From assembly GCA_034044135.1 (NCBI GenBank), contig CP139021.1, positions 1,441,635-1,505,634 of the forward strand: a DNA stretch of 64,000 nt. Reading direction: 5' to 3'. Positions 37,964-64,000 of this stretch are shown here, piece after piece. This stretch comes from Flammeovirgaceae bacterium SG7u.111 (GTDB lineage Bacteria; Bacteroidota; Bacteroidia; Cytophagales; Flammeovirgaceae). The first letter of the stretch is position 1, and each line of letters starts with the position of its first letter. The notes beneath the pieces were generated by a model. That model ran no database searches, had not been told where the DNA came from, and saw nothing but the letters and a program-made list of their open reading frames with translations. Both the position numbers and the translations under genes were made by a program.

Positions 37964-38124
37964 GTTTATTTGTTTTTAAAAGTTGATTATCAATGTTTTG
38001 TGGTTTTTAATGCTTTGTTTTTAAAAACCATTATGTATTTTTCTATAAAATACGAACTAGGGCTTCGAGCTTGTGAATGGAATCAATATCGAATGAACCA
38101 GTAATCAGAAACAAGAAACCCGCA

Positions 38125-38931
38125 TCACATATATATTTCCATGCTGCTTTTTACCTTGGCTTTTACCGCCTCATTTACCCCTTCCTTCTCCAACAACCTT
38201 TTGAGATATTTGGGCGATTTTTCTGCCTCCATCAGCAAAATGGCATCCACCAGTGCCGACTGCACAAGGGGCGATTCTTGCTGTTCCAGCGCTTTTATCA
38301 GCCCCAGGCGCACTTCGGGAAACTCTGTCATGGTCGTGAGCATTTCCACCGCTGCCAACCGCACATTGGGGTTGGGGTCTTTGTCCAGTGTATGCAGCAT
38401 TGCCTTCACCACTTTCAAGCTCTTGTCATCTATGTCATAAACAATATTGATTGCTTGTAGCCGCTTGCTAGCCGACTGCTGCTCCAGCATGCTCAAAAAC
38501 ACCATTTCCTTCATCGACTTTATCTCTTCCGAAAGTACCACCACCGTTTCCTTATTGCTTTTCATGGTGAGGGAATGTCCCAAGTGCAAGCCCACAAAAA
38601 AGATGGTGATACCTGCCACCAGTTGCAGGGCAAGTTTGTTTTGCCATATGCTCCAAACGCCTTGTAACAGTTTGCTAAAACCATTTTCTTTTTTGGAAGC
38701 AACCCCTTCTTTGTATCCATTGAGCATGGCGTAAAACCCATCGCCCATCGCCTGTGAGGGCTCGGGAGTTTTTAGGTTTTCCATACCTTTCCACGTTGCT
38801 TTTAGGCTGGAAAATTCTTGCTTAAATTCAGGGTGGCTGTTGAGGTATTCATCAAATTCAGCCAATTCTTTCTTATTGAGCTCGCCATTTAGCCAGGCTA
38901 CCGCTTGCTCTTTTGCCTTTTCATAAGTCAT
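38125..38931 (-). CDS. anti-sigma factor with membrane helix and periplasmic HEAT repeats
   Basis: 268 residues. The N-terminus (about 1-50, KEQAVAWLNGELNKKELAEF) is a zinc-less anti-sigma-like helical segment. One membrane helix follows (about 102-122, LALQLVAGITIFFVGLHLG), then HEAT-type helical repeats (about 165-260, NVRLAAVEMLTTMTEFPEVR and LVQSALVDAILLMEAEKSP). The start codon overlaps the sigma gene by 11 bp, so the two are translationally coupled. It probably holds the sigma factor at the membrane until an envelope signal is received. Confidence 0.85.
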   Translation of the reverse strand: MTYEKAKEQAVAWLNGELNKKELAEFDEYLNSHPEFKQEFSSLKATWKGMENLKTPEPSQAMGDGFYAMLNGYKEGVASKKENGFSKLLQGVWSIWQNKLALQLVAGITIFFVGLHLGHSLTMKSNKETVVVLSEEIKSMKEMVFLSMLEQQSASKRLQAINIVYDIDDKSLKVVKAMLHTLDKDPNPNVRLAAVEMLTTMTEFPEVRLGLIKALEQQESPLVQSALVDAILLMEAEKSPKYLKRLLEKEGVNEAVKAKVKSSMEIYM

Positions 38932-39487
38932 AATCCTTATTGATATTTAGTTGGCAATAAATCTTTTTCAATTCTTTGAGGGCTCGGAAAACTTTCACCT
39001 TCACGTTGCCCACCGAGTCGCCTGTTATCTCTCCTATTTCTTTGTATTTGAGCCCTTGGTACTTGCTCAGTACCAATATTTCCCGCTTGTCTTGGGGTAG
39101 CATGCCCAGTGATTTATTGAGTAGGTCAATGTCGTCTTGGTCCGAAATAGTATCCACTACGTTCGACATATCGGGCAATTTATCTTGCCAAAAGTCGATA
39201 TCTTGATGGTGCGAGGCGCCATTTTTCTTCAGGTAGTCGAAGCCGTTGTTTCGGGCTATACTGTACATCCAAGATGAAAAAGCCCCTTTTCCATTGAATT
39301 TCTTCCTGTTTTTCAAGATTTTGTAAAACGTATTTTGTACCAAGTCTTCACTTGCCTGCGCATCGGCGGTGAGGTGATAGAAATAGGCAAAGACCTTGCG
39401 GTTGTACCGCTCAAAAAGCAGCCCTAACTTGTTAAGGTCGCCTTCCTTCACTTTGGTCATCAGGGCTATGTCAGACAATGAATCCAA
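38921..39487 (-). CDS. ECF-type RNA polymerase sigma factor
   Basis: 188 residues. Region 2: YNRKVFAYFYHLTADAQASE then DLVQNTFYKILKNRKKF and SSWMYSIARNNGFDYLKK. Region 4: LPQDKREILVLSKYQGLKYK then EIGEITGDSVGNVKVKVFRA (helix-turn-helix). First gene of the operon sigma - HEAT anti-sigma - DUF4097. By family behaviour it likely autoregulates. Confidence 0.95.
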   Translation of the reverse strand: MDSLSDIALMTKVKEGDLNKLGLLFERYNRKVFAYFYHLTADAQASEDLVQNTFYKILKNRKKFNGKGAFSSWMYSIARNNGFDYLKKNGASHHQDIDFWQDKLPDMSNVVDTISDQDDIDLLNKSLGMLPQDKREILVLSKYQGLKYKEIGEITGDSVGNVKVKVFRALKELKKIYCQLNINKDYDL

Positions 39488-39950
39488 TGAATCGTTTTCT
39501 AGTTTATAGTTAATCGCTTATTTCTAAATTGCTGCTAATCAGGCTTGGCTCTTGCTAAAAGTTAATAGCTGTAACAACATTTATTGAGTGTTGTATATTG
39601 ATGGAAGAACCCCAACTGGCCTATGCGAAACCTCTACAATATTTCAACATCAACAGTAAGACTGGGGGTCGCGCAAAAGGTTACAACTTTACCAAGAAAA
39701 TATTTTTGTAAAGCAATAGAGTAGCGGTTAAAAGGGGGGAAATGCATGCTGGGAGAATCGCCAAGTTTTTGTGGTTATATTTTTTACAGCCGATTTATTT
39801 AGTAAATTTGGTAAGGAAAATCAGTGCTCCTAAATTGATGACCACATCAGAGAGCCTTTTTACAGCTTAGATTCCCTATGTTTCCATTTTTTTATAAGTG
39901 CTGCTGCTCCCATTTAGTTAATCTTTAAATTTTTAAATTCTTTTTTCAAG
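39488..39950. other. 463-bp intergenic region with promoters and cold-shock leader
   Basis: Lies between the divergent sigma-factor and RRM genes. A TAAATTTG box at 39803-39810 predicts a leader of about 135 bases ahead of the RRM gene, in keeping with structured leaders of cold-shock genes. No coding sequence seen. Confidence 0.5.
39803..39810 (+). promoter_or_regulatory. -7 box of the RRM/cold-shock operon
   Basis: TAAATTTG fits TAnnTTTG. A T-rich stretch (39781-39785) sits at about -33, without a perfect TTTG. Confidence 0.4.
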
Positions 39951-40217
39951 ATGGATATTTATGTTGGAAACCTTAGCTTCAAAATGGCTGAGGACGATTT
40001 GGCATCGCTTTTTGGCCAGTATGGTAATGTAATTACCGCAAAAGTAGTTTCTGATAGAGAAACAGGTAGATCTAGAGGTTTTGGTTTTGTAGAAATGGAC
40101 GACGAAGATGGAAGGGCGGCAATAGAAGGCCTACATGAAACTGAAGTAATGGGAAGGCAAATTATTGTAAACCAAGCTAGGGAGAAAAAGCCTACGCAAA
40201 ACAGGGGGAGATATTAA
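39951..40217 (+). CDS. RNA-recognition-motif (RRM) RNA-binding protein
   Basis: 88 residues, essentially one RRM: RNP2 IYVGNL (3-8), RNP1 RGFGFVEM (near 43-50), and a short basic tail ending QNRGRY, typical of cyanobacterial and Bacteroidota Rbp proteins. Its TAA overlaps the next ATG (TAATG), coupling it to the cold-shock gene. It probably acts as an RNA chaperone. Confidence 0.95.
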   Translation: MDIYVGNLSFKMAEDDLASLFGQYGNVITAKVVSDRETGRSRGFGFVEMDDEDGRAAIEGLHETEVMGRQIIVNQAREKKPTQNRGRY

Positions 40218-40426
40218 TGGAGTTGACTACAAAAGGAACAGTAAAGTTTTTTAATGAAAGTAAAGGTTTTGGTTTTATCCGAATAGATAACTCGACCGAC
40301 GAGCTTTTTTTCCACATTTCGGGCATGTCATCAGAATCTTTAGATGCAGATGATAGGGTAAGTTTTGAAACTGTGCAAGGAAAAAGAGGCCCTCAGGCAA
40401 CAAACGTGAAGCTTATACGCAACTAG
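40217..40426 (+). CDS. cold-shock (CspA-type) protein
   Basis: 69 residues: GTVKFFNESKGFGFIRIDN with RNP1 KGFGFI, LFFHISG as RNP2, then VSFETVQGKRGPQATNVKLI, the normal CSD layout. Translation is coupled to the preceding RRM gene through a one-base overlap. Together they form a compact RNA-chaperone operon. Confidence 0.96.
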   Translation: MELTTKGTVKFFNESKGFGFIRIDNSTDELFFHISGMSSESLDADDRVSFETVQGKRGPQATNVKLIRN

Positions 40427-40447
40427 TGGTAAAAATATTTTATGGAG

Positions 40448-40479
40448 AAGCCTTCCCGCCAAAGTGGGAAGGCTTTTTT
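40448..40479 (+). terminator. intrinsic terminator of the RRM/Csp operon
   Basis: aagccttccc (40448-40457) pairs with gggaaggctt (40466-40475), followed by T6. Confidence 0.9.
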
Positions 40480-40488
40480 ATGCAGAAC

Positions 40489-40518
40489 TTGTTTTTTGTC
40501 GATTGATTCCTAACTTTG
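40489..40518 (+). promoter_or_regulatory. promoter of the thiamine operon
   Basis: TTG (40489-40491) and TAACTTTG (40511-40518) are 19 bp apart, a good Bacteroidota -33/-7 pair. Transcription would start just before the TPP riboswitch. Confidence 0.65.
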
Positions 40519-40526
40519 GTGCTGTA

Positions 40527-40608
40527 AACTTTAGGGGTGCTGATATGTTTCGGCTGAGATAACACCCTTCGAACCTGATTTAGGCTAGTACCTGCGCAGG
40601 GAAAAGTT
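40527..40608 (+). ncRNA. TPP riboswitch (THI element)
   Basis: Conserved bases of the thiamine pyrophosphate aptamer are in order: aggggtgc (40533-40540), cggctgagataacaccctt, gaacctgattt, ggctagtacctgcgcaggga. P1 can close with aactt (40527-40531) and aagtt (40604-40608). The thiS start lies 105 bp downstream, so control could be by termination or translation. Confidence 0.96.
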
Positions 40609-40713
40609 CAAGTGTCTATATTGTGCCATTTCCTATGGTTCAATTTTTCGCGGTTCACTTTTCGAATAGGATTCCTCCCCCTTCAGTTTACAGCTATTAA
40701 AGCCCTTAAAAAT

Positions 40714-40917
40714 ATGATAACTGTAGACGTAAACAATCAGAATTATTCCTTTGAAGAACCCGTAAGCCTTGGTAAACTACTTCAAGAGTTGGAAATCAGT
40801 GCCAGCGGAATTGCTGTTGCTGTCAACAACCGCGTGGTTGCTCGTTCCAATTGGCAAGAATTCTTGCTGGAGGAAGGATGCAAGGTGCTGGTGGTTCAGG
40901 CTTCGCAGGGAGGTTGA
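40714..40917 (+). CDS. thiS: sulfur carrier protein ThiS
   Basis: I use the ATG at 40714; an upstream in-frame ATG at 40612 sits only 3 bp past the riboswitch aptamer and would add 34 residues unlike ThiS. The 67-residue product has the ubiquitin-like pattern ITVDVNNQNYSFEEPVSLGK, GIAVAVNNRVVARSNWQEF, and the essential C-terminal Gly-Gly (VVQASQGG). The end Gly is adenylated and loaded with sulfur for thiazole synthesis. No thiF adenylase is in this operon. Confidence 0.94.
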   Translation: MITVDVNNQNYSFEEPVSLGKLLQELEISASGIAVAVNNRVVARSNWQEFLLEEGCKVLVVQASQGG

Positions 40918-40972
40918 GTTACGTTGAGTTTGTTCATGAATAGCAACAAAGAATTACTCGATAAAATAGTGA

Positions 40973-42850
<1,878 letters not shown>

Positions 42851-42862
42851 AAGAGCAAATAC

Positions 42863-43459
42863 ATGTTGGTTTTGTTTACAGCTGAAAAGCTTTTTGAAAA
42901 GGAAGGTGCTCAAATAAAAGAAATACTGGAAATGGGTGCTGCGGTATTGCACGTAAGGAAACCTGGTATTTCTAAGGAGGAAATGTATGCTTGGTTGCAG
43001 CAGTTTCAGCCTGAGCACCTTGCTCAAATGGTTCTTCACCAGCATCAGGAGTTGGCCGATGAGTTTGTTGTGAAAGGAGTGCATTTGCCAGAATATACAA
43101 GGAACTCTCTGGCAGGCTCGCTTGAAGAATATATGGACAAGTACCAAGGAAGAGGGTTTACGGTGAGCACTTCTTTCCATGAAATAGAAACATTGAAGAG
43201 CTTCTCAAACTTCGATTACTGTTTTTTGAGCCCTATTTTTTCTTCTATTTCCAAAAGCAACTACGAAGGTAGACACTTTGAAGTAAAAGGTTTCGCCCAA
43301 AAAATAATTGCACTTGGAGGGATTACGCCAGACAAGTTTTCCCTGATAAAGGAGATGGGATTTGCAGGGGGAGCAGTGCTTGGGGCAGTGTGGGGAAGTG
43401 AAAATCCTGCCTTAAGTTTTGAGGAGATTTGGAAAGGATATAAGCTTGTGTTTGATTGA
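42863..43459 (+). CDS. ThiE/TenI-like protein (possible thiazole tautomerase)
   Basis: 198 residues of the thiamine-phosphate-synthase fold: ILEMGAAVLHVRKPGISKEE, EFVVKGVHLPEY, FTVSTSFHEIETLKSF, DYCFLSPIFSSISKSNY and IALGGITPDKFSLIKEMGF. The pyrophosphate-binding residues of true ThiE (VNDxxxxA and the HLGxxD loop) are weak or missing (HQELADEFV, HLPEY). The sequence thus fits the TenI side of the family, which aromatises the thiazole phosphate. It lies 12 bp after thiC. The call rests on missing motifs, so moderate certainty. Confidence 0.75.
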   Translation: MLVLFTAEKLFEKEGAQIKEILEMGAAVLHVRKPGISKEEMYAWLQQFQPEHLAQMVLHQHQELADEFVVKGVHLPEYTRNSLAGSLEEYMDKYQGRGFTVSTSFHEIETLKSFSNFDYCFLSPIFSSISKSNYEGRHFEVKGFAQKIIALGGITPDKFSLIKEMGFAGGAVLGAVWGSENPALSFEEIWKGYKLVFD

Positions 43460-43472
43460 TATTTTAGAAAGA

Positions 43473-44117
43473 ATGATAGAAAAAGCGATGATTTCAACAG
43501 TACATTATATCTCGCAAGGGGCTGATGGTGAGATGCATTTGGGGAATATAAAGCGAATGCTTGGTGCAGGTGCAAACTGGATACAGCTAAGGCTAAAGGA
43601 CGTGCCCAAAGCGGAAGTATTGGCAACGGCTATTGCAGCGAAAAAACTGTGTAAAAATGCGGGTGCAACACTCATTGTCAATGATTTTCCCGAAGTGGCT
43701 AAAAAAGCGGATGCAGATGGGGTGCATTTGGGAAAGTCCGATATGAGCCCTGCCGAGGCTCGAAAAATACTGGGGAAAAACAAGATTATTGGAGGCACGG
43801 CAAACACCATTGAAGACTGCGAACGGCTCTTGGAACAGCAGGTGGACTACATGGGTGTTGGACCTTTTCGCTTCACTACTACAAAGAAAAACCTGAGCCC
43901 GATTTTAGGAATAGAGGGCTATCAACAGCTGATGGCACAAGTATTGGCAAATCCCAAAGCTGTTCCCGTAATTGCCATTGGAGGGTTGCTTTTGGACGAT
44001 ATGCTTGGCCTAAAAGAGTGTGGGGTTCATGGGGTAGCTATTTCAGGAATGCTGACTAATTCGGAAAAGCCCGAAGAGGAAATAAGTAGGATTATGGAGT
44101 TATTCGGATCATTATAA
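43473..44117 (+). CDS. thiE: thiamine-phosphate synthase
   Basis: I start at the ATG at 43473, 13 bp after the previous stop (an ATG at 43488 is also possible; one at 43419 would overlap the upstream gene by 41 bp). Canonical ThiE motifs: GANWIQLRLKDVPKAEVL, TLIVNDFPEVAKKADADGVH followed by LGKSDM, IGGTANTIEDCERL, DYMGVGPFRFTTTKK and VIAIGGLLLDDM. It joins HMP-PP to thiazole phosphate. Having this gene beside a TenI-like one is common in this phylum. Confidence 0.93.
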   Translation: MIEKAMISTVHYISQGADGEMHLGNIKRMLGAGANWIQLRLKDVPKAEVLATAIAAKKLCKNAGATLIVNDFPEVAKKADADGVHLGKSDMSPAEARKILGKNKIIGGTANTIEDCERLLEQQVDYMGVGPFRFTTTKKNLSPILGIEGYQQLMAQVLANPKAVPVIAIGGLLLDDMLGLKECGVHGVAISGMLTNSEKPEEEISRIMELFGSL

Positions 44118-44286
44118 GTTTACTTGGTAATTCAAGTAATAGGAGGTTTTAAGATTGATAGTTAGGAGGTTAGATGCTAGAAATTAGAGGTTAGAGAACT
44201 GACATGCTAACTTAGGGTCAGTATTAACGTTTTCTCGCCGTGTAGGACAAGCAACTTGAGACGGTCTTTTAAGAGTTTAGGGCAAA

Positions 44287-44476
44287 GAACCCCGTGAGGG
44301 GTTCCATTATTGTAGAAATGTGAATTCAAATAGAAACCAACCCCGTATGGGGTTGCAGAAACCTAAATCATCGCAAAAATCCTGCAACATCCCGCTGAAA
44401 TACGGTACAGGCTCTACGGCGTTGTTTGATGACTTGGTTACCAAAAACATACAATAGTGAAACCCATACTGGGTTT
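44287..44476. repeat. cluster of three REP-like hairpins in the thiE-thiG gap
   Basis: Three short palindromes of one type: gaaccccgtgaggggttc (44287-44304), aaccccgtatggggtt (44339-44354), and aaacccatactgggttt (44460-44476), each 6-7 bp stems with 3-4 base loops. They sit in a 558-bp stretch (44118-44675) that has no gene. The spacers include agaaatg and agaaacc following arms, which suggests repeated units. They resemble dispersed non-coding palindromes found in Bacteroidota and Chlorobi genomes. They may weaken or separate expression of thiG and thiH. Confidence 0.65.
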
Positions 44477-44675
44477 TACCTAAGTTTATTAATAGCTTGA
44501 CCTCAAGTTACATTGTCAGTTCAGAGTTAGAAAAAATTCAAAAAGAGTGTTTTTTCTAACTTATAGCCTCCAGCTTCTAACTTCTTTTAAACTATTAAAA
44601 TCACCAATAAATTTACGTTTTTCAGAGGTTGCAAGTAGAGTCATAAAGAACCACTTATTCAAACCAGAATAATTT

Positions 44676-45446
44676 ATGGAAACATTAAAAATTGCAGATA
44701 AAACTTTTACATCGAGGCTATTTACCGGAACTGGGAAGTTCAGTAGTTCGGAGCTGATGCAGGAAGCCGTGTTGGCTTCGGAAAGTGAGCTGGTTACCGT
44801 AGCGCTAAAAAGGGTAGAGGCTGGCAACCAAAGCGACGATATGCTTTCGGTGCTCAAGCACGAGCGGATCAACTTGTTGCCCAATACTTCTGGGGTGCGA
44901 AATGCCGAGGAAGCAGTTTTTGCTGCCCAAATGGCAAGGGAAGCGTTGGGTACAAACTGGGTAAAAGTGGAGATTCACCCAGACCCGAAGTATTTGCTGC
45001 CAGACCCCATTGAAACGCTCAAAGCCTGTGAAGAATTGGTGAAATTAGGTTTTGTGGTGATGCCCTATATCCATGCCGACCCTGTGCTTTGCAAACGCCT
45101 AGAGGAAGTAGGGGCGCAGTGCGTGATGCCACTTGGAGCACCCATAGGTACGAACAAAGGGCTCAAGACCTTGGATTTTCTGGACATCATTATAGAGCAA
45201 AGCAACGTGCCAGTGATAGTAGACGCAGGCATTGGAACTCCTTCCCATGCTGCGCAGGCAATGGAAATTGGCGCCGATGCCGTGCTGGTGAATACGGCAA
45301 TAGCAGTTTCGCCAACTCCAGTACTGATGGCCAAAGCATTTAAACTAGCCGTGGAGGCAGGGAGAATGGCTTTTGAAGCAAAATTGGCCGTGGTCGGAAA
45401 AGAGGCCGAGGCAAGTAGTCCGCTAACCCAGTTTTTGTATGATTAG
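44676..45446 (+). CDS. thiG: thiazole synthase
   Basis: 256 residues. [67 protein letters not shown] (with the Schiff-base Lys region), [40 protein letters not shown] and [12 protein letters not shown] are family signatures. It builds the thiazole ring from deoxyxylulose phosphate, dehydroglycine and ThiS thiocarboxylate. It overlaps thiH by 8 bp. Confidence 0.97.
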
Positions 45447-46548
45447 TATTAATGAAATAGTTGATTCTCAGGATTGGGAGGGCGTTTTGGAAAGTATCTT
45501 TTCCAAAACGGAAAGGGATGTGCAGGCAGCTTTGGCAAGTTCCAAACTAAACTTGGAAGATTTTAAGGCGCTGATTTCCCCAGCGGCTCGGCCTTACCTT
45601 GAGCAAATGGCGGTAAGAAGCAGGGCGATTACAAGAAAGCGCTTTGGCAATACCATGCAGATGTACGCACCTCTGTACCTCAGCAATGAGTGCCAAAATA
45701 TTTGTACCTATTGCGGTTTTAGTTTAACCAATAAAATTCCCCGCCGAACCCTGTCAGACCAAGAAATTTTGAAAGAAGCGGAGTTTTTGAAGGCAAAAGG
45801 GTTTCAGTATATTTTGCTGGTAACGGGAGAGGCTAACCAAACCGTGGGGATAGATTACCTTGCAAATGCAATTCGCTTGCTTAGGCCACATTTTGTCAAT
45901 ATCTCTATTGAAGTGCAGCCTTTGAGCCAAAGCGAATACGAACTGCTCATTGCCGAAGGTTTGTACGCAACGTTGGTCTACCAAGAAACCTACCGCAGGG
46001 AGACCTATAAAATACACCATCCCAAAGGGAAGAAATCTAACTTTGACTACCGCTTAGAGACGCCCGATAGGTTGGGAAGGGCAGGTATTCATAAAATTGG
46101 TTTGGGAGCACTTTTTGGCTTGGAAGATTGGCGGGTGGATAGCTTTTTTACCGCATTGCACCTGAAGTACCTCCAAAAAGCCTATTGGAAAACAAAATAT
46201 TCCATCTCTTTCCCCCGCTTACGGCCCTTCAGCGGAGGCTTAGAGCCCAAAGTAGAAATGACCGATCCGGATTTGTTACAACTGATTTGTGCCTACCGGA
46301 TGCTGGACGAAGACGTGGAACTTTCCCTCTCTACACGGGAGAATGAAAAGTTTAGAAACCATGTAGCCCAGTTGGGGATTACCTCTATGAGTGCCGAGTC
46401 CAAAACGAATCCTGGTGGGTATGTGATAGAGCCACAGTCGTTGGAGCAGTTCGAGATTTCCGATGAGCGAAGCACCGAAGCCATCGCCAGCATGCTGAAG
46501 GAAAGAGGGCTAGAGCCCGTGTGGAAAGATTGGGAAAAAACGTGGTGA
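45439..46548 (+). CDS. thiH: 2-iminoacetate (dehydroglycine) synthase ThiH
   Basis: 369 residues, radical SAM. Cluster motif CQNICTYC (Cys85, Cys89, Cys92) within [17 protein letters not shown], then [55 protein letters not shown], and [12 protein letters not shown]. It cleaves tyrosine to supply dehydroglycine for ThiG, the anaerobic-type route; no thiO is present. The overlap with thiG implies coupled translation. Confidence 0.97.
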
Positions 46549-46781
46549 TAAAAGATTGATATACTGTAAAATAAATAACCGAGTATTTTAATGGGAATCA
46601 TTATTTTGATTTTTAGACCCTGCTAACGGTTGCAAGTTACGGGTTTTAAGAAATAAAGCTTCTAGTTTTAACTAGGTAATTTGTTCGGAGGGTGAGTGGA
46701 ATTAAAAGGCTCTAAAGAGTAAATTTCCACTAGCTTTGTACCTTCATAAAGGAGTGGCCTAAACCGAAAGACTATCTATCG

Positions 46782-47393
46782 ATGAATTTAAAAAAACTAA
46801 TTCCTGAATTAGTGTCAGGACTCAAGGATGCGGGATTTGATGCAAATCCAAAAGAGATACAGAGTACGAGTATCCCTCAAATTAAATCTGGGGCTGACCT
46901 TTTTATTGTCTCGCCCGAAGGGTCCGGTAAATCAACCGCCATTGTAATAGGTGTAATTCAGCAGCTAAAAGAAGCATTCGAAGATGTTCCCCGGGCTATC
47001 ATTATGGCAGCTACAAAGGAAAAAGCTTTTGAGCTAGAAGCACAGTTTGAGCTTCTTGGCAAGCATACCAACTTAAGGACATTCACCGTGTTCGACAAGG
47101 GCATTTTGCAGTATCAGAAAGATACTATTTACGAAGGGCTGGATGTACTTATAGGAACACCAAGGCGTCTGAACGAACTGTTAAAGGCGACAGGAATCCC
47201 CCTTTCCCAAATCAAAATGTTTGTGGTGGACGATGTAGCATCTTTTACCCTTGATAAGTACACCATGATCTATCGGATAGCAGACAACATTGAGAAATCA
47301 CAAATGATCTTGGTGGCAAATGCCTGGGATAAAAAGTTTGAGAAATTGACGGACAGGATAATGAAAAGCCCGAGAATTATTGAGGTTGGGTAA
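46782..47393 (+). CDS. single-domain DEAD-box-like ATPase (RecA1 only)
   Basis: 203 residues corresponding to the first RecA domain of a DEAD-box helicase. Q-motif-like NPKEIQSTSIPQI (23-33, Gln27), Walker A SPEGSGKST (44-52), motif Ia IMAATKEKAFEL, Ib-like LIGTPRRLNELL. Motif II is VVDDVAS in place of DEAD, and the SAT motif is replaced (LVANAWDKK). No second RecA domain follows, and the gene has a normal start and stop, so it is short by design and not obviously truncated. It is probably an ATP- or RNA-binding protein without true unwinding activity. Confidence 0.75.
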   Translation: MNLKKLIPELVSGLKDAGFDANPKEIQSTSIPQIKSGADLFIVSPEGSGKSTAIVIGVIQQLKEAFEDVPRAIIMAATKEKAFELEAQFELLGKHTNLRTFTVFDKGILQYQKDTIYEGLDVLIGTPRRLNELLKATGIPLSQIKMFVVDDVASFTLDKYTMIYRIADNIEKSQMILVANAWDKKFEKLTDRIMKSPRIIEVG

Positions 47394-47461
47394 AGAACCT
47401 GCAAACTTTTGAAGCCTTGTAGCGAAGTAACAACGTTACTCCTGAACCATCTATAATCCAG

Positions 47462-47602
47462 CTACAGTAGGATTAATAAATCCTACTGTAGGGCTTCGTG
47501 ATTGCAAATCACGAAGAGCGGGTTGTTCAATTAACTTTAATTGCTGTTCCAACTTCGGGAAGTCGAAATATATTGATAGGAAGTGCAACCCGACTCTTTT
47601 TT
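47462..47602 (+). ncRNA. candidate structured RNA: stacked palindromes ending in a T-run
   Basis: Four stem-loops and one closing stem are packed into 141 bp. Hairpin 1: ctacagtaggatt/aatcctactgtag (47462-47491, perfect 13 bp). Hairpin 2: cttcgtgatt/aatcacgaag (47494-47516, perfect 10 bp). A long-range stem, gagcgggttg (47516-47525) with caacccgactc (47586-47596, one bulged base), encloses two smaller hairpins (caatta/taattg; actt/aagt), and T6 follows at once (47597-47602), like an intrinsic terminator. No coding frame fits. It could instead be a palindromic mobile relic. Confidence 0.45.
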
Positions 47603-47719
47603 GGATCATAATAGTTATAGCCTCTTGTTTTTAGCTTTTAATTGTTATATAACGTTTTGGCGTATAGGAGTGTGCGCGTATTACAGAGGATTTATTAATG
47701 ACTTATAATTGAAATGTAA

Positions 47720-48271
47720 ATGAAGAAATTATCAACACTTTATAAAAAAGACCCTAACGATTTAGGGCGAGTAATTAATGAGGTTAACCCACAAAATGAA
47801 TGGGTATTTAAATATGGAATACCAACACGAAAGTTTGACGGAACTTCTTGTGCCATTATTGATGGTGAACTTTACAAAAGGTTTGACTTAAAGAAAGGTA
47901 GAACTTTACCACCAAACGCAATACCTTGTCAAGAACCTGACGAAAAAAGTGGGCATCATCCATATTGGGTTAAGTGCGAGCGAGAGGATAAAAGCAATAA
48001 ATGGCACTTTGTAGCCTTTGACGCTTTAGAAAATAAAGAAGAAAGTACTTATGAACTTTGTGGTAAAAAAGTGCAAGGAAACCCTGAGAAGATAGAAGGG
48101 CATCAACTAATAAAGCACGGGTGTGAAGTGTTGGACATAACAGATTTTACTTTTGATGGGTTAAAGTCTTTTTTGGAAGTAACCGATATTGAAGGAATTG
48201 TATTTCACGATTCTAAAAGTGATAAAATGTGCAAGATTAGAAAGTCTGATTTTGGAATACGCAGGAAGTAG
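47720..48271 (+). CDS. compact RNA ligase, DUF5565/RLIG1-like
   Basis: 183 residues carrying every motif of covalent nucleotidyltransferases in order: motif I RKFDGTSC with Lys38 as the expected AMP-carrying residue; LYKRFDLKKG (51-60, motif Ia-like); motif III HFVAFDAL (97-103); motif IV EGIVFHD (158-164); motif V CKIRKSDFG (171-179). Spacing and the GTPTRKF-like entry match the DUF5565 family, whose human member C12orf29 (RLIG1) is a 5'-3' RNA ligase. There is no C-terminal domain. It is a lone gene flanked by palindromes and debris, suggesting horizontal transfer. Probable role: RNA repair; the substrate is unknown. Confidence 0.85.
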   Translation: MKKLSTLYKKDPNDLGRVINEVNPQNEWVFKYGIPTRKFDGTSCAIIDGELYKRFDLKKGRTLPPNAIPCQEPDEKSGHHPYWVKCEREDKSNKWHFVAFDALENKEESTYELCGKKVQGNPEKIEGHQLIKHGCEVLDITDFTFDGLKSFLEVTDIEGIVFHDSKSDKMCKIRKSDFGIRRK

Positions 48272-48318
48272 TATGCCTAATGGTCTAGTAAAAGAATAGT
48301 GCGGTTAAGCAACTAACC

Positions 48319-48494
48319 CAATGTTTTCTTGTTGTTTTGGGCTATACTTAAAAAATCCCTACCCCTCAAACAAAAAGCCTAGCGCATTCTGTAGCGAGGC
48401 ATTGTGGTTATCGGTTTTCCAGATGGCGAAGAGATGGGTGCGCTGCGGTATATTCACAAGCTCTATGGCTTTGATGCGGAGCTGGTAGCCTTCT
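48319..48494 (-). pseudogene. duplicated 3' end of the LysR regulator gene
   Basis: The stretch closely matches 54250-54424, the end of the LysR gene near hutH plus its downstream flank (gggctatact, cccctcaaac, and the coding bases for NHNASLQNALxFLFEG and EGYQLRIKAIELV). It encodes only about 44 C-terminal residues, with several substitutions and no start. Similarity stops abruptly at agccttct. Confidence 0.88.
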
Positions 48495-48726
48495 TGAAGA
48501 GAGGTTCCTGAAATGTGCAGTTGCAGCGAAATATATATCCAAGCAGCTTTTGGGTACATGAAAAAATCGCCATTGCCAGTGGCTTACAGCCAATAGTGCA
48601 ATTCAACAAGCTTGGAGGTGTTTATTATGGTCTGTGCGCCACAGACCAAGGGGTTGGAAATTGGGAACAGGAGGTCATTGCCAATAAGCTGAAGCAGAAA
48701 ATCCCGATACAGTGAGCTATTTTCAT

Positions 48727-48840
48727 TTCTATGATTCTTTCTGGTTTTCACCACCTGTCCATTGAAGTAGATGGTTTGCCCCGATTTGGAAAATTCTACC
48801 TTGCCAATCCAAGCAGCTCCTCTGTCGCTTTGATTGCTGC
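48727..48840 (-). pseudogene. fragment of a small conserved protein gene
   Basis: Reading the - strand gives NQSDRGAAWIGKVEFSKSGQ followed by TIYFNGQVVKTRK, then unrelated sequence. This resembles the N-terminal half of a small bacterial family with the pattern 'DRGAAWIGKV-x-S-KSGQTxYFNG' and is broken after that. No start codon remains. It begins at the stop codon of the large T9SS gene. Confidence 0.55.
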
Positions 48841-51800
48841 TTATCTCTTAAGTATCTTGCGAGTGATGTTTGAATTAGTACCAATTACTTTAATAAAATA
48901 AAGTCCAGATTGGAATTCTGAAATATTTATTTCTGTATTGTCACTGGTGATGAATCCTGTTTTCACTTCATACCCATTGATATTGAAAATCTTATAAGTG
49001 GTATAGCCTTCCCAATTATCAGTATTAGCTACATGAACAGTAATTGTATTTGTTGTTGGGTTTGGGTATATGATAATTCCATTTGCTACATCAGTAATGA
49101 TTTTATTTTCATTATTTAAACTCTTTGCTTTTCTACTTCCACTACTGCTTAGATCACTCAAGGAAGGGTTTAATATTCTCAATTCATTAGTAGTTGAAGC
49201 ATTTCGAATACATAATCTAACCCAATGGGCTTCTACTGGAATATCAAAAAGTTTTTGATGCTTACTCCATTTATCTCTATACCAGTCAGTTCCACAATCA
49301 TCAGAAGTTACATTACTAAAATAGGAATACCAATATTTATAGTAGCTAGACCATGACAAGTTTATATTTTGATCAACTTCTTCATCAGTGAGCATATTGA
49401 AATTATCATCTAGGAACTCGATACCTAAAATACCATAGTAGGTATCTGTTTCAGTAGTTTTCAATAATGCAGAAAATGATAAATTATCAATATCACTTAC
49501 ATTAATAAGATCATTATAATATACAGGTTCATTAATTGTAACGGTCATAGGGTAAGGCTCTCCCCAGTTATATTTATCTAAAATATTATTGGGAACATCG
49601 TCAATAATCACTGGGACATTATCTGTGTGATCAGTTTTTAATGACAAGTTATCAAATAGTAGTTCATTGTCGTATCCCCAATTTCTGATATATATTTTAA
49701 TTGAAGCAACTGAGTTTTGAAAGCTAAACTCTCCAATGTGTTTGTACCAATTGTGATCTATTTCACTTATATAGAAGTAATTCATATTCAAAGCGGATGA
49801 ATAAGCAATATTGTTAACGACGTCTTTCGTAAATGCTATTCCATCTTCATTGAAACACTGTATTCCTATTAAGGCTTTGTTATGTCTTGATGGGTCTATT
49901 ATTGGAAGTTGCTCTTTGGCACTTACCTCAAAGGTATAATTAATGTTTGTAGTGACGGGTATTCTTTTAGATGTGTTGATGCTTTTATTGTTACCAAGCT
50001 TCACTGAAAAGTTTCCATTGATCATTGGAGCATCTGATATCAAATAGTTTGAATTGTAATTATAAAATAAAGTTGATTTCGAACTAGTCAAATTATTATT
50101 ATCCAGATAAATGTTACGCCAAAGTATTGTATTTTGAGTATTCCAATTCCTGAGGAAGTATTTGACTTTTACAGTTCCTAAAGGAGGTATAAAATTAATA
50201 CTGAAGTTTTGGTATTCTGTATTGGGTGTTAAATAAGAATACCAACTATTGAAGTATGATGAGTAATTTAGTTGAGTTGAATATGGAGGTGTATTGATTA
50301 CATTGCCATCATTGTCATAAAAAATGATCCCAAAAAGGGCACTATTGTTATAGTTATCGTTTTCAAGTTCCTTTACCTGAAATCTCATTGTATAACTATC
50401 GCTTTCCTGAACAGGAATAAATTCTGAGAAAATAGAGTGTTGATTCGATGTTTGAATCTCTATTTCTCTATTACGAGACTGTGAAAATAAATTATTCACC
50501 ACTTCATGATTTCCTTCCCAAGCAAATAGTGATCCATCGGATTCACTTAAGTTTTCGAAACCTCCATTAATGATTACCCCTCTCCTGCTACTTTTAATAA
50601 ACCCATATAAATTGTTATAATCTTGGCGTTTTGAAGGGTTTGAGGAATAACAGTTATTATAATGTGCGCCCCCATCGTCATAATATAATTTAGAGAAGTT
50701 GACATAGCCCAGCTTGTATCCGTAATCAAAGTAATCGTTTATCCTACTGTAAATTTCATTGTTTTTAGTATCTAACTCTCTTGACTCAATATTGAATCCG
50801 AAATTAGAGGGTTCAGCTATTGAAAAAGCTCTTTTTATATGGTCACGACCTTGATTTATTAACTTAGTCTCATCATTTGGTTTGGTATCAAAAAAAGCAT
50901 TCGGTTGAAACCATAAAACATCAAAAAGGTCTACTATATCATTACTGTTATAACTATTAAATATTTTCTTACATTCATTTGAATCTGCCCTGATGTGTGG
51001 AGAGCTAAAAAACTTCCAATCTTTTGATTTTATAGCGCTAGCTGCATAACTTAAGAAATAATCATAAGCTTCTGCATCTACATCTTCATCTATAAAATAG
51101 ATACCGGCAAGCTCTATTTTTGAATTAGGATTATTTGATTTCCACCTATTGAATTTTACTTCAATCGAATCCAAATACCATTGTATTGTACTTTGAATAG
51201 TTTCTTTTTGTTCAGGGGAGTTTTTGTAAAGTGATTGATCTACTTTTGGTAACGTTAATATTACTTTTGTTTGCGGAATAGGTAGTCCAAAAGTACTAGA
51301 AACATAAGTTTTAGCATTATGTAACTCATCTAATAAAGCGGTTCGATCATCGTACAAAAACGTATCTGCCCCTTGAGCTCTTTCGAATGAACCTTGTTCC
51401 AATAAGTTATTTTCTGGTCCTCCTTCAAATTTTGAATTGCTATCAGGTATAAGAGCGCTGTCTCCCTTGTTGAAATAATAGTTGTCAATTAGAACTTTAT
51501 TTCTTTTATCATAATTGATGATGTGAACATGCATATATACAGCCTTTGAAGGTGGCTTTATCTTCACTAAGAAGTTTTTTTTCCAACCGTTGGTTAGAGG
51601 CACATCAATAAAGTGATAGTTGTAGCTAAGACTGAAATGTAATGTATCAGCTAATGAATTGGTTGGTTCTATTTTTTCTCCTATATAAATTTTTTTATCA
51701 TTATCATCGAAAAACTCAATAGCTACTCTTAACCCTTTGGGAATAGTGCCGATAATCACGTCATTTAAAGGCTTATAATCAAAAGTAAGTTGATATAAAT

Positions 51801-52245
51801 AGGTGGAGTCTGTTTCAATATTTTTATTTGATATCGCATAATGACTTCTGTTATCAAGTAATCCGCAAGTGTCCCCATTATACGTTGTAGTCGAAATAAT
51901 TTTTGTTTTTGTAAAAATATTATCGAGATAATATTCCATATCAGACCGGTCATAGCTTTCAGAAAAACTACCTGTATTATAATACAAATCAGTAAGTACA
52001 AAAGCATCGATCAATGTATCTTTTGGTGTACCGTCGGTATCCAAATAATAAATGTATGGGATAAAAGCCTCCCGAGCGCTCTTTTTGTTCGCACGATGTG
52101 TAAATAAATGGAAGTGCGCATTAGAGATTCCTAATTCCGTTCCTATATTAGTTCTTTCAGGGCTTTGACCTGTAACAGGAATAGGAAACAAAATAATAAT
52201 TGATAAAACACAGCTTAGGACTAGCTTTATAATAGAATGAAGCAT
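48841..52245 (-). CDS. very large secreted protein, DUF4855-like, with T9SS sorting domain
   Basis: The start at 52245 gives a signal peptide (MLHSIIKLVLSCVLSIIILF, ending PVTGQ); a start at 52281 adds 12 residues. The mature protein (about 1110 residues) has an N-terminal TIM-barrel-like region resembling DUF4855 (LIDAFVLTDLYYNTGSFSES, IYFIDEDVDAEAYDYFLSYA, YNNLYGFIKSSRRGVIINGG). Repeated carbohydrate-binding-like beta-sandwiches follow (units with 'YSSYFNSWYSYL' and 'ALNMNYFYI'). The end is IIIYPNPTTNTITVHV then ITRKILKR, a type A T9SS signal. Base use is far more AT-rich than the hut or thi genes, a sign of transfer. Polysaccharide binding or cleavage is inferred. Confidence 0.82.
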   Translation of the reverse strand: MLHSIIKLVLSCVLSIIILFPIPVTGQSPERTNIGTELGISNAHFHLFTHRANKKSAREAFIPYIYYLDTDGTPKDTLIDAFVLTDLYYNTGSFSESYDRSDMEYYLDNIFTKTKIISTTTYNGDTCGLLDNRSHYAISNKNIETDSTYLYQLTFDYKPLNDVIIGTIPKGLRVAIEFFDDNDKKIYIGEKIEPTNSLADTLHFSLSYNYHFIDVPLTNGWKKNFLVKIKPPSKAVYMHVHIINYDKRNKVLIDNYYFNKGDSALIPDSNSKFEGGPENNLLEQGSFERAQGADTFLYDDRTALLDELHNAKTYVSSTFGLPIPQTKVILTLPKVDQSLYKNSPEQKETIQSTIQWYLDSIEVKFNRWKSNNPNSKIELAGIYFIDEDVDAEAYDYFLSYAASAIKSKDWKFFSSPHIRADSNECKKIFNSYNSNDIVDLFDVLWFQPNAFFDTKPNDETKLINQGRDHIKRAFSIAEPSNFGFNIESRELDTKNNEIYSRINDYFDYGYKLGYVNFSKLYYDDGGAHYNNCYSSNPSKRQDYNNLYGFIKSSRRGVIINGGFENLSESDGSLFAWEGNHEVVNNLFSQSRNREIEIQTSNQHSIFSEFIPVQESDSYTMRFQVKELENDNYNNSALFGIIFYDNDGNVINTPPYSTQLNYSSYFNSWYSYLTPNTEYQNFSINFIPPLGTVKVKYFLRNWNTQNTILWRNIYLDNNNLTSSKSTLFYNYNSNYLISDAPMINGNFSVKLGNNKSINTSKRIPVTTNINYTFEVSAKEQLPIIDPSRHNKALIGIQCFNEDGIAFTKDVVNNIAYSSALNMNYFYISEIDHNWYKHIGEFSFQNSVASIKIYIRNWGYDNELLFDNLSLKTDHTDNVPVIIDDVPNNILDKYNWGEPYPMTVTINEPVYYNDLINVSDIDNLSFSALLKTTETDTYYGILGIEFLDDNFNMLTDEEVDQNINLSWSSYYKYWYSYFSNVTSDDCGTDWYRDKWSKHQKLFDIPVEAHWVRLCIRNASTTNELRILNPSLSDLSSSGSRKAKSLNNENKIITDVANGIIIYPNPTTNTITVHVANTDNWEGYTTYKIFNINGYEVKTGFITSDNTEINISEFQSGLYFIKVIGTNSNITRKILKR

Positions 52246-52304
52246 CTTGTTAGAATAAAAAATTAAAAATATGATATGCAATATGCTTAAATACTTTTAA
52301 GTAA

Positions 52305-53495
52305 CTGAGCTTTCGCTCGGATAAAATTTTGAATTGATTAAAATCTGATTAGGCGGCTATCTTTGTATTTATGGAAAGACGAGATGCATTTGAACTTTAC
52401 ACCGATTATTTGGTAGCTAACCAAGGTTTAGCTACTTCTACTGGCTTGTCAGCCCTATTAGATGAAAACCTTAAACATGATTACATCAGTGACAGTCTCG
52501 CACAGCAAGGTTTAGATCAAAAAGCCTTTTGGAAAGAGGTCAAACCTTTTGTCCGCAAAATTGAAAACGAAGAAAGTGTTATTTCCATTGATGACACCAT
52601 CATCAAAAAGCCTCACAGCACTGAAAACGAGGTGATCAATTACCATTTTGACCATACCACCGGTAAAAGTACAAAGGGCATCAATTTACTTAACTTTCTG
52701 CTCAGCAGTGAATATGAGCAGCAAATTGTCAATAGCCCTTTAGCTTACCATGTTGTGCGCAAGTCACAGGCTTACAAGGATAAAGATGGAAAAACCAAGT
52801 ATAAGAGCGAAGTCTCCAAGAATGAAGTTGTATTAGAACAACTCAGGTGCCTGACTTTTCTCAACCAAGTCAAATACAGGTACATCTTGTTTGATTCTTG
52901 GTTCTCTAGCTCAAAAAGCTTGAAATACATCCACACCAAACTAGAGAAGGTATTTGTTTGCCCTCTCAAGAGTAACCGTTTGGTTGCCTTGGATTTACAG
53001 GACAAGAAAGAGGGTAAGTTTGTCAATGTGTCTACACTGTCATTTGACTCCCAAGAGCCTCTACAGGTCTATGTCAAGGGCTTGGAATTCCCTGTCAGCC
53101 TAGTTCGAGAAGTCTTTAAGAACAAAGACCGCTCAACAGGAGTACTCTATCTGATTAGCAATGACACCTCACTCACTTACGATCAGCTCACTACAATCTA
53201 TCAGAAACGATGGAAAGTAGAGGAGTTCCATAAATCACTCAAACAAAACACCTTGCTCGGTAATTCCCCCACTAAAATGGAGGTGGGCCAGTGTAACCAT
53301 ATTTTTGCCTCTATGCTTGCCTACGTGCAGTTAGAACGCCTAAAAGTTAAAGAACGACTGAACCACTTTGCCCTAAAAGCAAAGTTTCATCTTGTGATGC
53401 TTAAAGCAGCTTTTGACCAGTTACAGGTACTTAAAGCTGCCTAGGTCTTAATATAAATCTTCACCTTCGCAAATATTGAATAAGCGAAAGGTCAG
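52305..53495 (+). mobile_element. IS4/IS701-like insertion sequence with 8-bp flanking repeat
   Basis: Inverted ends ctgagctttcgct (52305-52317) and, reverse-complemented, ctgacctttcgct (53483-53495), 12 of 13 matching. A perfect direct repeat TTAAGTAA lies at 52297-52304 and 53496-53503 and would be the target duplication. Length 1191 bp with one transposase gene. Inserted about 60 bp upstream of the large T9SS gene's start, on the opposite strand. Confidence 0.85.
52371..53444 (+). CDS. IS4-superfamily (IS701-like) DDE transposase
   Basis: 357 residues, intact. N-terminal RDAFELYTDYLVANQGLATS with SALLDENLKHDYISD as the DNA-binding segment. Catalytic residues: first Asp in SIDDTIIKK (Asp74/75), second in LFDSWFSSS (Asp175), Glu in YQKRWKVEEFHKSLKQ (Glu284), the YREK-type signature of the IS4 superfamily. 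A beta-strand insertion lies between the second Asp and Glu (about 195-265). The N-terminal wording matches IS701-group elements known in Bacteroidota. Confidence 0.92.
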   Translation: MERRDAFELYTDYLVANQGLATSTGLSALLDENLKHDYISDSLAQQGLDQKAFWKEVKPFVRKIENEESVISIDDTIIKKPHSTENEVINYHFDHTTGKSTKGINLLNFLLSSEYEQQIVNSPLAYHVVRKSQAYKDKDGKTKYKSEVSKNEVVLEQLRCLTFLNQVKYRYILFDSWFSSSKSLKYIHTKLEKVFVCPLKSNRLVALDLQDKKEGKFVNVSTLSFDSQEPLQVYVKGLEFPVSLVREVFKNKDRSTGVLYLISNDTSLTYDQLTTIYQKRWKVEEFHKSLKQNTLLGNSPTKMEVGQCNHIFASMLAYVQLERLKVKERLNHFALKAKFHLVMLKAAFDQLQVLKAA

Positions 53496-53539
53496 TTAAG
53501 TAAAAAGTTATATAAGCAAATGTAATAACAATGATTTGA

Positions 53540-54176
<637 letters not shown>

Positions 54177-54275
54177 CTCCAAACGTAGCTTCCCCTTTAA
54201 GTTATACTGAAAGATAACTTACAAACCTAACTTTTTCAACTTAATAACAATGTTTTGTGATTATTTAGGGCTATA

Positions 54276-55175
54276 CTATAAGAAAGTTTGCCCCTCAAAC
54301 AAAAAGTCCAAAGCATTCTGTAGCGAGGCGTTGTGGTTATCGGTTTTCCAGATGGCGGAGAGCTTTGTGCGCTGCGGGATATCCACAAGCTCTATGGCTT
54401 TGATGCGGAGCTGGTAGCCTTCTATCAGGGTAGTGGGGACAATGGCGATGCCCAAGCCGTTTTCCACCAGTTTGAAAATAGTGAAAGCATGCACCGACTC
54501 GTGGGAAACTACGGGGTCGAAGCCTTGGTCTTGGCAAATACTTGTTACCATGTTGTAGTATTCATTGCTATAGTCGCTGGAAAACAGGATAAACTTCTCG
54601 TCTTTGAGCTGCCCAATGTGCTCAAACTTCTGGGCAGTCATAGGATGTGCAGCGGGCAGCACTACCGAAAACGAATCCTCATGCACCACTTTCGATTGCA
54701 GCCCTTTGGGGAAAGAAGAAATCCGCACAAAACCCAAGTCTAGTTTGTCCTTGAGTAATAGCTCTATTTGCTGTAGGTTGGCAAGCTCTTGCAGCGAGGT
54801 GTGGATATCGGGAAATTGGCTATTGATCCGCAGGATAAGCTCGGGCAACACATGATGGATGGCAGAGCCTACAAAGCCAATCCTTACTTCCCCAGAGTCT
54901 CCCTTATGAATTAATGAGGTCTGCTTTTTGGCAAACTCCAAGCGGTTGAATAGGTAATCGACCTCCGTTTTTAAGTACGTACCTGCTGGTGTCAGCTTTA
55001 CTGATCGCTTGGTTCTTTCGAACAGTTGCGCATCAAGTATTTCCTCCATTTGCTTTATCTGTCGGCTCAATCCCGGCTGCGCTATGAACAGCCTTTCCGA
55101 TGCTTTTCGGTAGTTCAATTCCTCTGCCAAGGTCTTAAAATATTTGAGGTGCCTAAGTTCTATCTGATAACTCAT
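54276..55175 (-). CDS. LysR-family transcriptional regulator, probable hut regulator
   Basis: 299 residues. Winged helix at the N-terminus (LRHLKYFKTLAEELNYRKAS, ERLFIAQPGLSRQIKQMEEI, AQLFERTKRSVKLTPAGTYL) and a periplasmic-binding-like effector domain (VRIGFVGSAIHHVLPELILR to the end). It is divergent from hutH with 92 bp between, the usual arrangement for a LysR activator of the adjacent operon, with urocanate or histidine as plausible effector. Its 3' end is duplicated at 48319-48494. Confidence 0.92.
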   Translation of the reverse strand: MSYQIELRHLKYFKTLAEELNYRKASERLFIAQPGLSRQIKQMEEILDAQLFERTKRSVKLTPAGTYLKTEVDYLFNRLEFAKKQTSLIHKGDSGEVRIGFVGSAIHHVLPELILRINSQFPDIHTSLQELANLQQIELLLKDKLDLGFVRISSFPKGLQSKVVHEDSFSVVLPAAHPMTAQKFEHIGQLKDEKFILFSSDYSNEYYNMVTSICQDQGFDPVVSHESVHAFTIFKLVENGLGIAIVPTTLIEGYQLRIKAIELVDIPQRTKLSAIWKTDNHNASLQNALDFLFEGQTFL

Positions 55176-55226
55176 GGTTATTAACTAATGATTTAAATGG
55201 TATTTAGAGGTATTAAAAATACAGCT

Positions 55227-55234
55227 TAATTTTG
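55227..55234 (+). promoter_or_regulatory. -7 box of the hutH promoter
   Basis: TAATTTTG fits TAnnTTTG, 33 bp before the hutH ATG; TTTA at 55203-55206 could serve as -33. The short region up to the LysR start would hold the regulator site. Confidence 0.5.
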
Positions 55235-55267
55235 GGATAACGATAAACAAGAAAAACTTTACTATAC

Positions 55268-56839
55268 ATGCAACCACCCTTTGAATACGGAAGTCAGCGT
55301 TTGACCTCGGGCATCGCACTTAAAATTGCCCGAGGAACGCTCGCTGGCGTAATTACGCCGGCAGTAGCCTCACGTGTGCAGGCTAGCTACAATCATGTAA
55401 AGCAAATTGCGGCAGGCGAACAGGCTGTTTATGGTATCAATACAGGTTTTGGCCCGCTTTGTACCACCCGTGTTTCTGCTACCGATCTTACCCGTTTGCA
55501 AAGTAATATTCTAAAGAGCCATGCCGTGGGAGTAGGAAAGCCGCTCGAAGCAGAAGTGGTAAAGCTCATGATCATCCTGAAAATCCATGCTTTGGCACAG
55601 GGCTATTCGGGCATTGCCCTCGCCACGCTAGAGCGCATGCAATGGCTGGTGGAAAATGAGGTGCTTCCCCTCGTGCCTTCCCAAGGTTCGGTAGGGGCAT
55701 CGGGCGATCTTGCGCCTCTTTCCCATTTGTTTTTGCCCCTCATCGGGCTCGGAATGGTCACTTTCGAAGGAAAAACTGTGGAGGCAAAAGAGGTGCTGGC
55801 CAAATTCGGTTTGCAGCCCATCGAGCTTTCTCCCAAAGAGGGGCTTGCCCTCATCAACGGAACGCAATTTATAGCGGCTCATGCGGTGAAGGTGGTGGAA
55901 CGCTTGCACACACTTATGATGTGTGCAGATATTACCGGGGCAATGATGATAGAAGGCTTGAAAGCTTCGGTGAAGCCTTTTACGCAAGTGCTTCATGAAT
56001 TAAGACCTTTTCCTGCCAACCAATATGTAGCAGGTTCTATACGCCAATTATTGCAGGGTTCGGAAATTTTAGCATCGCATGCGGGCTGTGCCAGGGTGCA
56101 AGATCCGTACAGCTTGCGTTGCATTCCTCAGGTTCATGGCGCATCGATAACTAGCTGGCTGCACCTAAAAGAAGCGGTGGAAATTGAGCTCAATTCTGTA
56201 ACGGATAATCCGGTGATCATCGACCGAGCCAACACCATCAGCGGTGGCAACTTCCACGGGCAGCCTTTGGCATTGCCCATCGATTATGCCTGCTTGGCAG
56301 CTTCGGAAATAGGGAATATCTCTGACCGTAGAGTCTACCTTGCTCTCGAAGGCGATACGCCGGGCGTGCCCAAATTGCTGATGAAAGAAACGGGTACAAA
56401 TTCTGGTTTTATGATTGTCCAATACACTTCCGCTGCCTTGGCAAGTGAAAACAAAGGCTTGTGTTTTCCTGCAAGTGCCGATAGTATTCCTACCTCGCTA
56501 GGGCAGGAAGACCATGTGAGCATGGGCTCGATAGGGGCAAGAAAAGCGCTTCGAGTGATTGAAAACACGGAGAGGATAGTGGGAATAGAACTTATGTGTG
56601 CTGCACAGGCTATGGACTACCACCGCCCGCTCCAGTCAGGAAAAATCATGGAAGCGGTGCATGCCCATGTGCGAAGCAAAATTCCCCACATAGAAGAGGA
56701 TCAATTGATGTCAGGCTTTTTGGAGGCGGCAGTGGAAATGGTACGAAACGGAGAGCTACCCAAAATTGTCCAGTCTGTAGCTGCTCAAGAACAAATTGAT
56801 TTTGAAATTCCTCATGTTTCAATTTATGAGGAGTATTAA
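55268..56839 (+). CDS. hutH: histidine ammonia-lyase
   Basis: 523 residues. The MIO cofactor triad is Ala144-Ser145-Gly146 in GSVGASGDLAPLSH; other signatures are VYGINTGFGPLCTTRV, ALINGTQFIAAHAVK, VQDPYSLRCIPQVHGAS, NSVTDNPVI and SGGNFHGQPLALPIDY. It deaminates histidine to urocanate, the first step of the pathway. First gene of the hut set, under the divergent LysR. Confidence 0.98.
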   Translation: MQPPFEYGSQRLTSGIALKIARGTLAGVITPAVASRVQASYNHVKQIAAGEQAVYGINTGFGPLCTTRVSATDLTRLQSNILKSHAVGVGKPLEAEVVKLMIILKIHALAQGYSGIALATLERMQWLVENEVLPLVPSQGSVGASGDLAPLSHLFLPLIGLGMVTFEGKTVEAKEVLAKFGLQPIELSPKEGLALINGTQFIAAHAVKVVERLHTLMMCADITGAMMIEGLKASVKPFTQVLHELRPFPANQYVAGSIRQLLQGSEILASHAGCARVQDPYSLRCIPQVHGASITSWLHLKEAVEIELNSVTDNPVIIDRANTISGGNFHGQPLALPIDYACLAASEIGNISDRRVYLALEGDTPGVPKLLMKETGTNSGFMIVQYTSAALASENKGLCFPASADSIPTSLGQEDHVSMGSIGARKALRVIENTERIVGIELMCAAQAMDYHRPLQSGKIMEAVHAHVRSKIPHIEEDQLMSGFLEAAVEMVRNGELPKIVQSVAAQEQIDFEIPHVSIYEEY

Positions 56840-56877
56840 TTAGTTGCCAGTGATAAGATATACTTTTTCTAAATAGG

Positions 56878-56915
56878 CGGGGCTTCCTGTGCAGCTTTAG
56901 CGGTATTAAGCCCCG
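56878..56915. other. hairpin in the hutH-hutI gap
   Basis: cggggctt (56878-56885) and aagccccg (56908-56915) form a perfect 8-bp stem with a 22-base loop. No T-run follows, so it may affect mRNA stability between hutH and hutI instead of ending transcription. Confidence 0.45.
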
Positions 56916-57049
56916 TTCAAAAGCAAAACGATTTGGCTTTAGCCTAAACTAAAAACTAGTAAACAGCAATCTCAGCTTCGATCCGTAAGAAAAAATAGGT
57001 AGAAAAGAAGCCGAAATTCTTACAAAACATAATTAATAAAGCACAAGGC

Positions 57050-62780: not shown

Positions 62781-64000
<1,220 letters not shown>

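Follow-up and report, generated by a model that had tools for sequence, protein, structure and literature searches.

The closest described relatives of the gene considered here are the RNA ligases of the RLIG1 family (also C12orf29 or DUF5565; Pfam PF17720), whose human member, Rlig1, is about 325 residues long. The family extends to viruses, and the solved structure of the Yasminevirus enzyme (9c6l) has been described as a minimal fold that lacks an RNA-binding domain; several bacterial and viral homologs have joined tRNA halves in vitro by 5'-phosphate/3'-OH RNA ligation (PMC11494293). For viral RLIG1, the published prediction is that it undoes RNase-based defence. Two other groups of phage ligases are relevant, namely PHROG 14301, which includes gp057 of Cellulophaga phage phi10:1 and gp79 of Mycobacterium phage Thyatira, and T4 Rnl1, which repairs tRNA against PrrC. 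The last system of interest is the integron, in which half of a cassette's own attC site supplies its first bases. Integrons and attC sites also occur in phages (PMC9892861).

The DNA analysed here, called the window in what follows, is a stretch of 64,000 nucleotides from the chromosome of Flammeovirgaceae bacterium SG7u.111. Its ligase has the whole-protein fold and all the catalytic residues of the RLIG1 family in common with the human and Yasminevirus enzymes, and it is like the latter in consisting of a nucleotidyltransferase domain without an RNA-binding domain, with 183 residues against 242 resolved in the viral structure and an identity of 25–29%. The members of PHROG 14301 have the same size and match over the full length, with 65% identity to the phi10:1 ligase across aligned residues; unlike them, the window ligase lies in a bacterial chromosome, with cassette-type ends and no phage gene neighbourhood. 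Integron cassettes and CALINs, including those of phages (Qi et al. 2023, PMC9892861), have attC-like hairpins and AACG...TGTTA boxes that are also found in the ligase relatives, as are ends complementary within each cassette and arrays mixed with DNA methylases, whereas the window holds what appears to be one decayed cassette, in a genome without a recognisable integron integrase. With T4 Rnl1 the likeness lies in the proposed role, i.e., the sealing of tRNAs cut in the anticodon loop, but the window ligase lacks the Rnl1 RNA-binding domain, and no end-healing enzyme adjoins its gene in the window.

The features discussed below are the following, where L008, L013, L027 and L029 are ligase loci used for comparison:

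46782–47393, plus strand: DEAD-domain-only ATPase of 203 residues, no helicase C domain
47462–47602, no strand assigned: palindromic block outside the ligase unit; its second hairpin, at least, appears to be a repeat dispersed at low copy number
47494–47521, no strand assigned: second hairpin of the block, CTTCGTGATTGCAAATCACGAAGAGCGG; same palindrome at G000:C1:2665630
47648–47672, plus strand: possible degenerate attC 3' half TATAACGTTTTGGCGTATAGGAGTG, weakly resembling the L013 attC CTTGCGTATAGGTGGTGTT (sequence comparison)
47673–48276, plus strand: DNA homology to the phage-borne ligase cassette L008 (86%, 604 nt), taken as the mobile unit
47673–47719, plus strand: cassette leader (..ATTACAGAGGATTTATTAATGACTTATAATTGAAATGTAA), kept in the ligase cassettes L008, L013, L027 and L029 (alignment)
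47720–48271, plus strand: RLIG1/DUF5565-family 5'-to-3' RNA ligase ORF, 183 residues, nucleotidyltransferase domain only
48272–48283, plus strand: decayed R''-like cassette end TATGCCTAATGG, which in relatives reads TATGCACAAC or AATGCTAATGG (alignment)

The ligase and its relatives

A preliminary description of this DNA had proposed a compact RLIG1-type ligase and a profile search for it, and that search bears the proposal out, because the 183-residue protein scores 31.3 bits against PF17720 (E 1.2e-7), above the cut-off of 25. The protein also covers the PHROG 14301 RNA ligase profile over its full length (E 2.2e-64) and matches the sequence of the solved Yasminevirus enzyme (E 4e-13). Its AlphaFold2 model (pLDDT 92) superimposes on 9c6l with Z 18.9 and 2.2 A over 177 residues, and the next-best fold families are the Naegleria RNA ligase (Z 9.2) and T4 Rnl1 (Z 8.2). 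By alignment to 9c6l, the catalytic residues are K38, D40, R54, E112, H133, E158 and K172, all of them invariant across 24 aligned relatives and all counterparts of Yasminevirus residues tested by mutation (PMC11494293). The set required for an RLIG1 enzyme, i.e., the nucleotidyl lysine of KxDG and the residues of motifs Ia, III, IIIa, IV and V, is thus present. Motifs I, IV and V lie where they had been placed at the outset; motif III had been read in FVAFDAL, but the alignment puts its glutamate at E112, in TYELCG, and motif IIIa at H133.

The accessory domain is absent, as had been described, yet this is the usual form in phages and bacteria and normal for the RLIG1 family. The suggestion that a minimal bacterial relative would in itself be new does not hold, since annotated RLIG1s of this size exist in phages and bacteria and homologs have been assayed (PMC11494293). 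Phage homologs of this size, annotated as RNA ligases, are found in Cellulophaga phage phi10:1 and in many mycobacteriophages, and copies on plasmids or secondary replicons of Vibrio, Deinococcus and Streptomyces are annotated as DUF5565. The window ligase adds a new member to a known family, and positions 47720–48271 encode a complete RLIG1/C12orf29-family RNA ligase that is probably active.

In the phylogeny, the window ligase forms one clade (support 97/98) with L008, which carries a terminase, and L015, a viral contig. Against these two, dN is 0.05 and dS 0.64–0.68, and the resulting dN/dS of about 0.08 indicates that the gene has been selected for function along these branches, a value that speaks for the lineage and does not prove expression of the window copy. 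Such a low ratio is also what a resident housekeeping gene for RNA repair would give. This explanation is nevertheless improbable in view of the distribution of the gene, since among 57 further genomes from the family and order a single one has a match to the protein (36% identity), PF17720 is found in at least three of 395 genomes of the phylum (a lower bound, because the six-frame search overlooked the copy in the window), and the closest relatives are mobile elements. A search of an anti-phage library left the ligase unmatched. The reading frame of the Roseivirga copy (L009, 5001–5546) is broken by a stop codon near residue 28, and this copy is therefore a probable pseudogene, unless a later start is used.

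The palindromic block upstream of the ligase

The preliminary description had further read the block at 47462–47602, seen as four stem-loops with a closing stem and T6, as a likely small RNA with its own terminator, and had raised the possibility of a ligase with a dedicated RNA. In such a joint system, the RNA would either guide the enzyme or be processed by it. The block is truly palindromic, with perfect inverted repeats of 13 nt at 47462–47491 and of 10 nt at 47494–47516, and the region 47455–47610 folds at -55.9 kcal/mol, where shuffled sequences average -31.5 (z -6.4). This strong fold, the short distance to the ligase and the T6 that terminates the closing stem are the points in favour of a joint system. 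However, of the hairpins the centroid structure retains the first two only, together with the closing stem, so that two of the four stem-loops are weak, and a terminator scan gave no flag at the T6.

The comparison with other loci also speaks against a dedicated RNA. Of 25 ligase loci compared, taken from genomes and from viral contigs, not one contains the block or the DEAD gene, and the best DNA match spans 22–26 nt (E 0.27). The block is likewise absent from the phage collection searched, its second hairpin is absent from the viral contigs searched, and Rfam returned no match, either at the gathering threshold or at E<=1. Moreover, the mobile unit that contains the ligase begins at 47673, 71 bp beyond the end of the block. 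Within the genome, where repeats were examined by pattern and by DNA search, the whole 141-nt block has no second copy, yet its second hairpin, CTTCGTGATT-N3-AATCACGAAG, recurs at 2665630, unlinked to the ligase. Similar CGAAGAGCGG hairpins lie at 1836329, 1837822 and 2667636, and hairpins ending in a CGAAGAGCGG or CGAACAGCGG tail occur at several more places, mostly intergenic. Given this dispersal, the block resembles a hairpin repeat present in few copies in this genome, which is the only one of 194 genomes of the order that has its exact hairpin pattern. Absence from homologous loci and unlinked recurrence in the genome are the two outcomes that the preliminary description had named as refuting a dedicated RNA; the first is observed for the block and the second for its second hairpin. 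The one-system explanation is accordingly very hard to credit, and we regard it as close to certain that the gene is an RLIG1 ligase and, jointly, that the block is not its partner. The tempting but wrong idea of a ligase with its own guide RNA is thereby removed.

Two related candidates were considered and set aside. The block could have been a REP element of a resident RAYT/IS200-type transposase, but the flanks of the three Y1_Tnp matches inspected, out of 17 in the genome, carry other repeats. The neighbour at 46782–47393 is indeed a RecA1-only ATPase, as had been noted, with a DEAD domain and no helicase C domain; as a partner of the ligase it was rejected, the gene being missing from all 25 loci compared, and no close copy of it was found in 17 other genomes of the family.

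Cassette ends in the relatives and their probable remnants in the window

In several relatives, the ligase gene is flanked by matching ends, with a start GTTGTGCATA or GTTAGCATTA 5' of the gene and TATGCACAAC or TAATGCTAAC past the stop, which is the signature of an integron cassette. The clearest case is L013, where seven cassettes, among them the ligase and two DNA methylases, are separated by hairpin-rich AACG...TGTTA sites, and where each of the seven has a start (GTT...) that is reverse-complementary to its own end (...AAC) over about 8–10 nt. The two ends of this contig (L013 1–4991) overlap by about 140 bp, so that the assembly joins the array of seven cassettes into a ring, which is either a circular cassette product or a loop of the assembly graph.

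The same complementary R'/R'' signature flanks the ligase in L008, L010, L016, L027 and L029. Phage genes accompany it on several of these contigs, i.e., a terminase in L008, an endolysin in L010, a major head protein in L016 and a portal protein in L027. In a larger viral set, complementary ends of at least 8 nt are present at nine of 80 loci, compared with 0.25% of shuffled flanks, although three of the nine (L117, L150 and L188), in which the common leader and stop context are missing, could be due to chance. Other loci, L015, L017 and L018 among them, retain only the 3' end of the cassette, and most phage homologs have no cassette ends. The attC-like sites differ too much in length for a sound alignment, and a covariance model was given up.

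The window copy matches L008 from 415 to 1018, in a cassette with GTT at 413 as its start and AAC at 1023 as its end, so that the homology begins and stops within the two cassette ends (R'/R''). Leader and stop context are likewise in common. The ends in the window itself are not complementary, their best match of 4 nt being no better than in shuffles, and a site finder detected no intact attC beside the ligase in 44000–52000, where degenerate halves are seen by eye only. Its status as a cassette therefore rests on homology to the relatives. In the host genome, no match to the integron integrase model TIGR02249 exceeds the cut-off, and the best ones miss profile positions of about 180–234.

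From these sequence comparisons, the window apparently holds a single decayed ligase cassette, of phage or integron origin, beside an unrelated hairpin repeat. As most phage homologs lack cassette ends, ordinary phage recombination is another conceivable route of entry, in which the gene would have come with a prophage that was later deleted, its ends being inherited from the phage copy with no cassette recombination at this site. The many phage ligases of this kind and the phage contigs that are the nearest relatives agree with such a history, but the homology to phage copies breaks off at the cassette ends and takes in no further phage gene, and none of the ORFs listed in 38000–58000 was recognised as a phage gene (by inspection, with a domain search for four). 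We consider this history rather unlikely, and lean somewhat towards entry of the ligase as an integron-style cassette that has since decayed, with the block unrelated to it. The gene and its attC would have been supplied by a Bacteroidota phage or an integron array, and decay of the ends would have left one immobile cassette in a genome without a recognisable integron integrase, with purifying selection still acting on the ligase gene within its lineage, and the palindromic block as a hairpin repeat of the resident chromosome.

The novelty is modest, its sole fresh element being the apparent carriage of an RLIG1 ligase, in cassette form, between phages of Bacteroidota and integron arrays; the cargo is new, whereas vehicles of this kind are known. 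In the papers searched, no RNA ligase was found as cassette cargo, and those on integron gene cassettes and RNA ligases are not, by title and abstract, about an RLIG1 cassette. Integron cassettes are now connected with a phage-borne homolog of the human enzyme for RNA repair.

Proposed function and further features of the window

The analysis computed the family, the fold, the catalytic residues, the selection, the cassette anatomy in relatives and the limits of homology; the ligation activity of the 183-residue protein, tRNA as its substrate and the route of entry are inferred. By the chemistry of the family, ATP would adenylate K38 to lysyl-AMP, the AMP would pass to the 5'-phosphate end of an RNA to give AppRNA, and this end would be sealed to a 3'-OH. 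The likeliest substrates would be tRNAs cut in the anticodon loop, and in a phage setting the ligase would counter host RNases or RNase-based defence, in the manner of T4 Rnl1. Published homologs and the gene context make a role in tRNA repair likely, and for the host bacterium, the plain options would be RNA repair in general or a safeguard against toxins that act as RNases.

Regarding this context, L012 has four tRNAs directly upstream of the ligase, L011 has seven, with RtcB about 2.4 kb upstream, and in L015 a kinase gene whose product weakly resembles polynucleotide kinases is located about 0.8 kb before the ligase. In L011 (1129–8492), RtcB, the seven tRNAs and the RLIG1 ligase are clustered and followed by a protein of 815 residues with a CorA-matching C-terminal part; this may be a phage tRNA-repair cluster. 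More tentatively, RLIG1 ligases could be a mobile counter-RNase cargo exchanged between Bacteroidota phages and integron arrays, where they would repair tRNAs against the anticodon nucleases of the other side, a suggestion to which we give somewhat less than even chances. The link between ligase and integron opens to direct test the protection that RNA ligases carried on cassettes may give against defences that cleave tRNA.

A few other features of the window deserve mention. Directly after the ligase lies a 3'-end fragment of a LysR gene, as a repeat of 86% identity between 48319–48494 and 54248–54423; the intact LysR regulator gene is at 54276–55175, and a transposase gene (52371–53444) lies between the two copies. 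A further repeat pair joins 53850–54169 with 63029–63400. A TPP riboswitch at 40523–40619 precedes thiamine genes, and a perfect inverted repeat of 30 bp with an 8-bp loop is found at 3140–3207.
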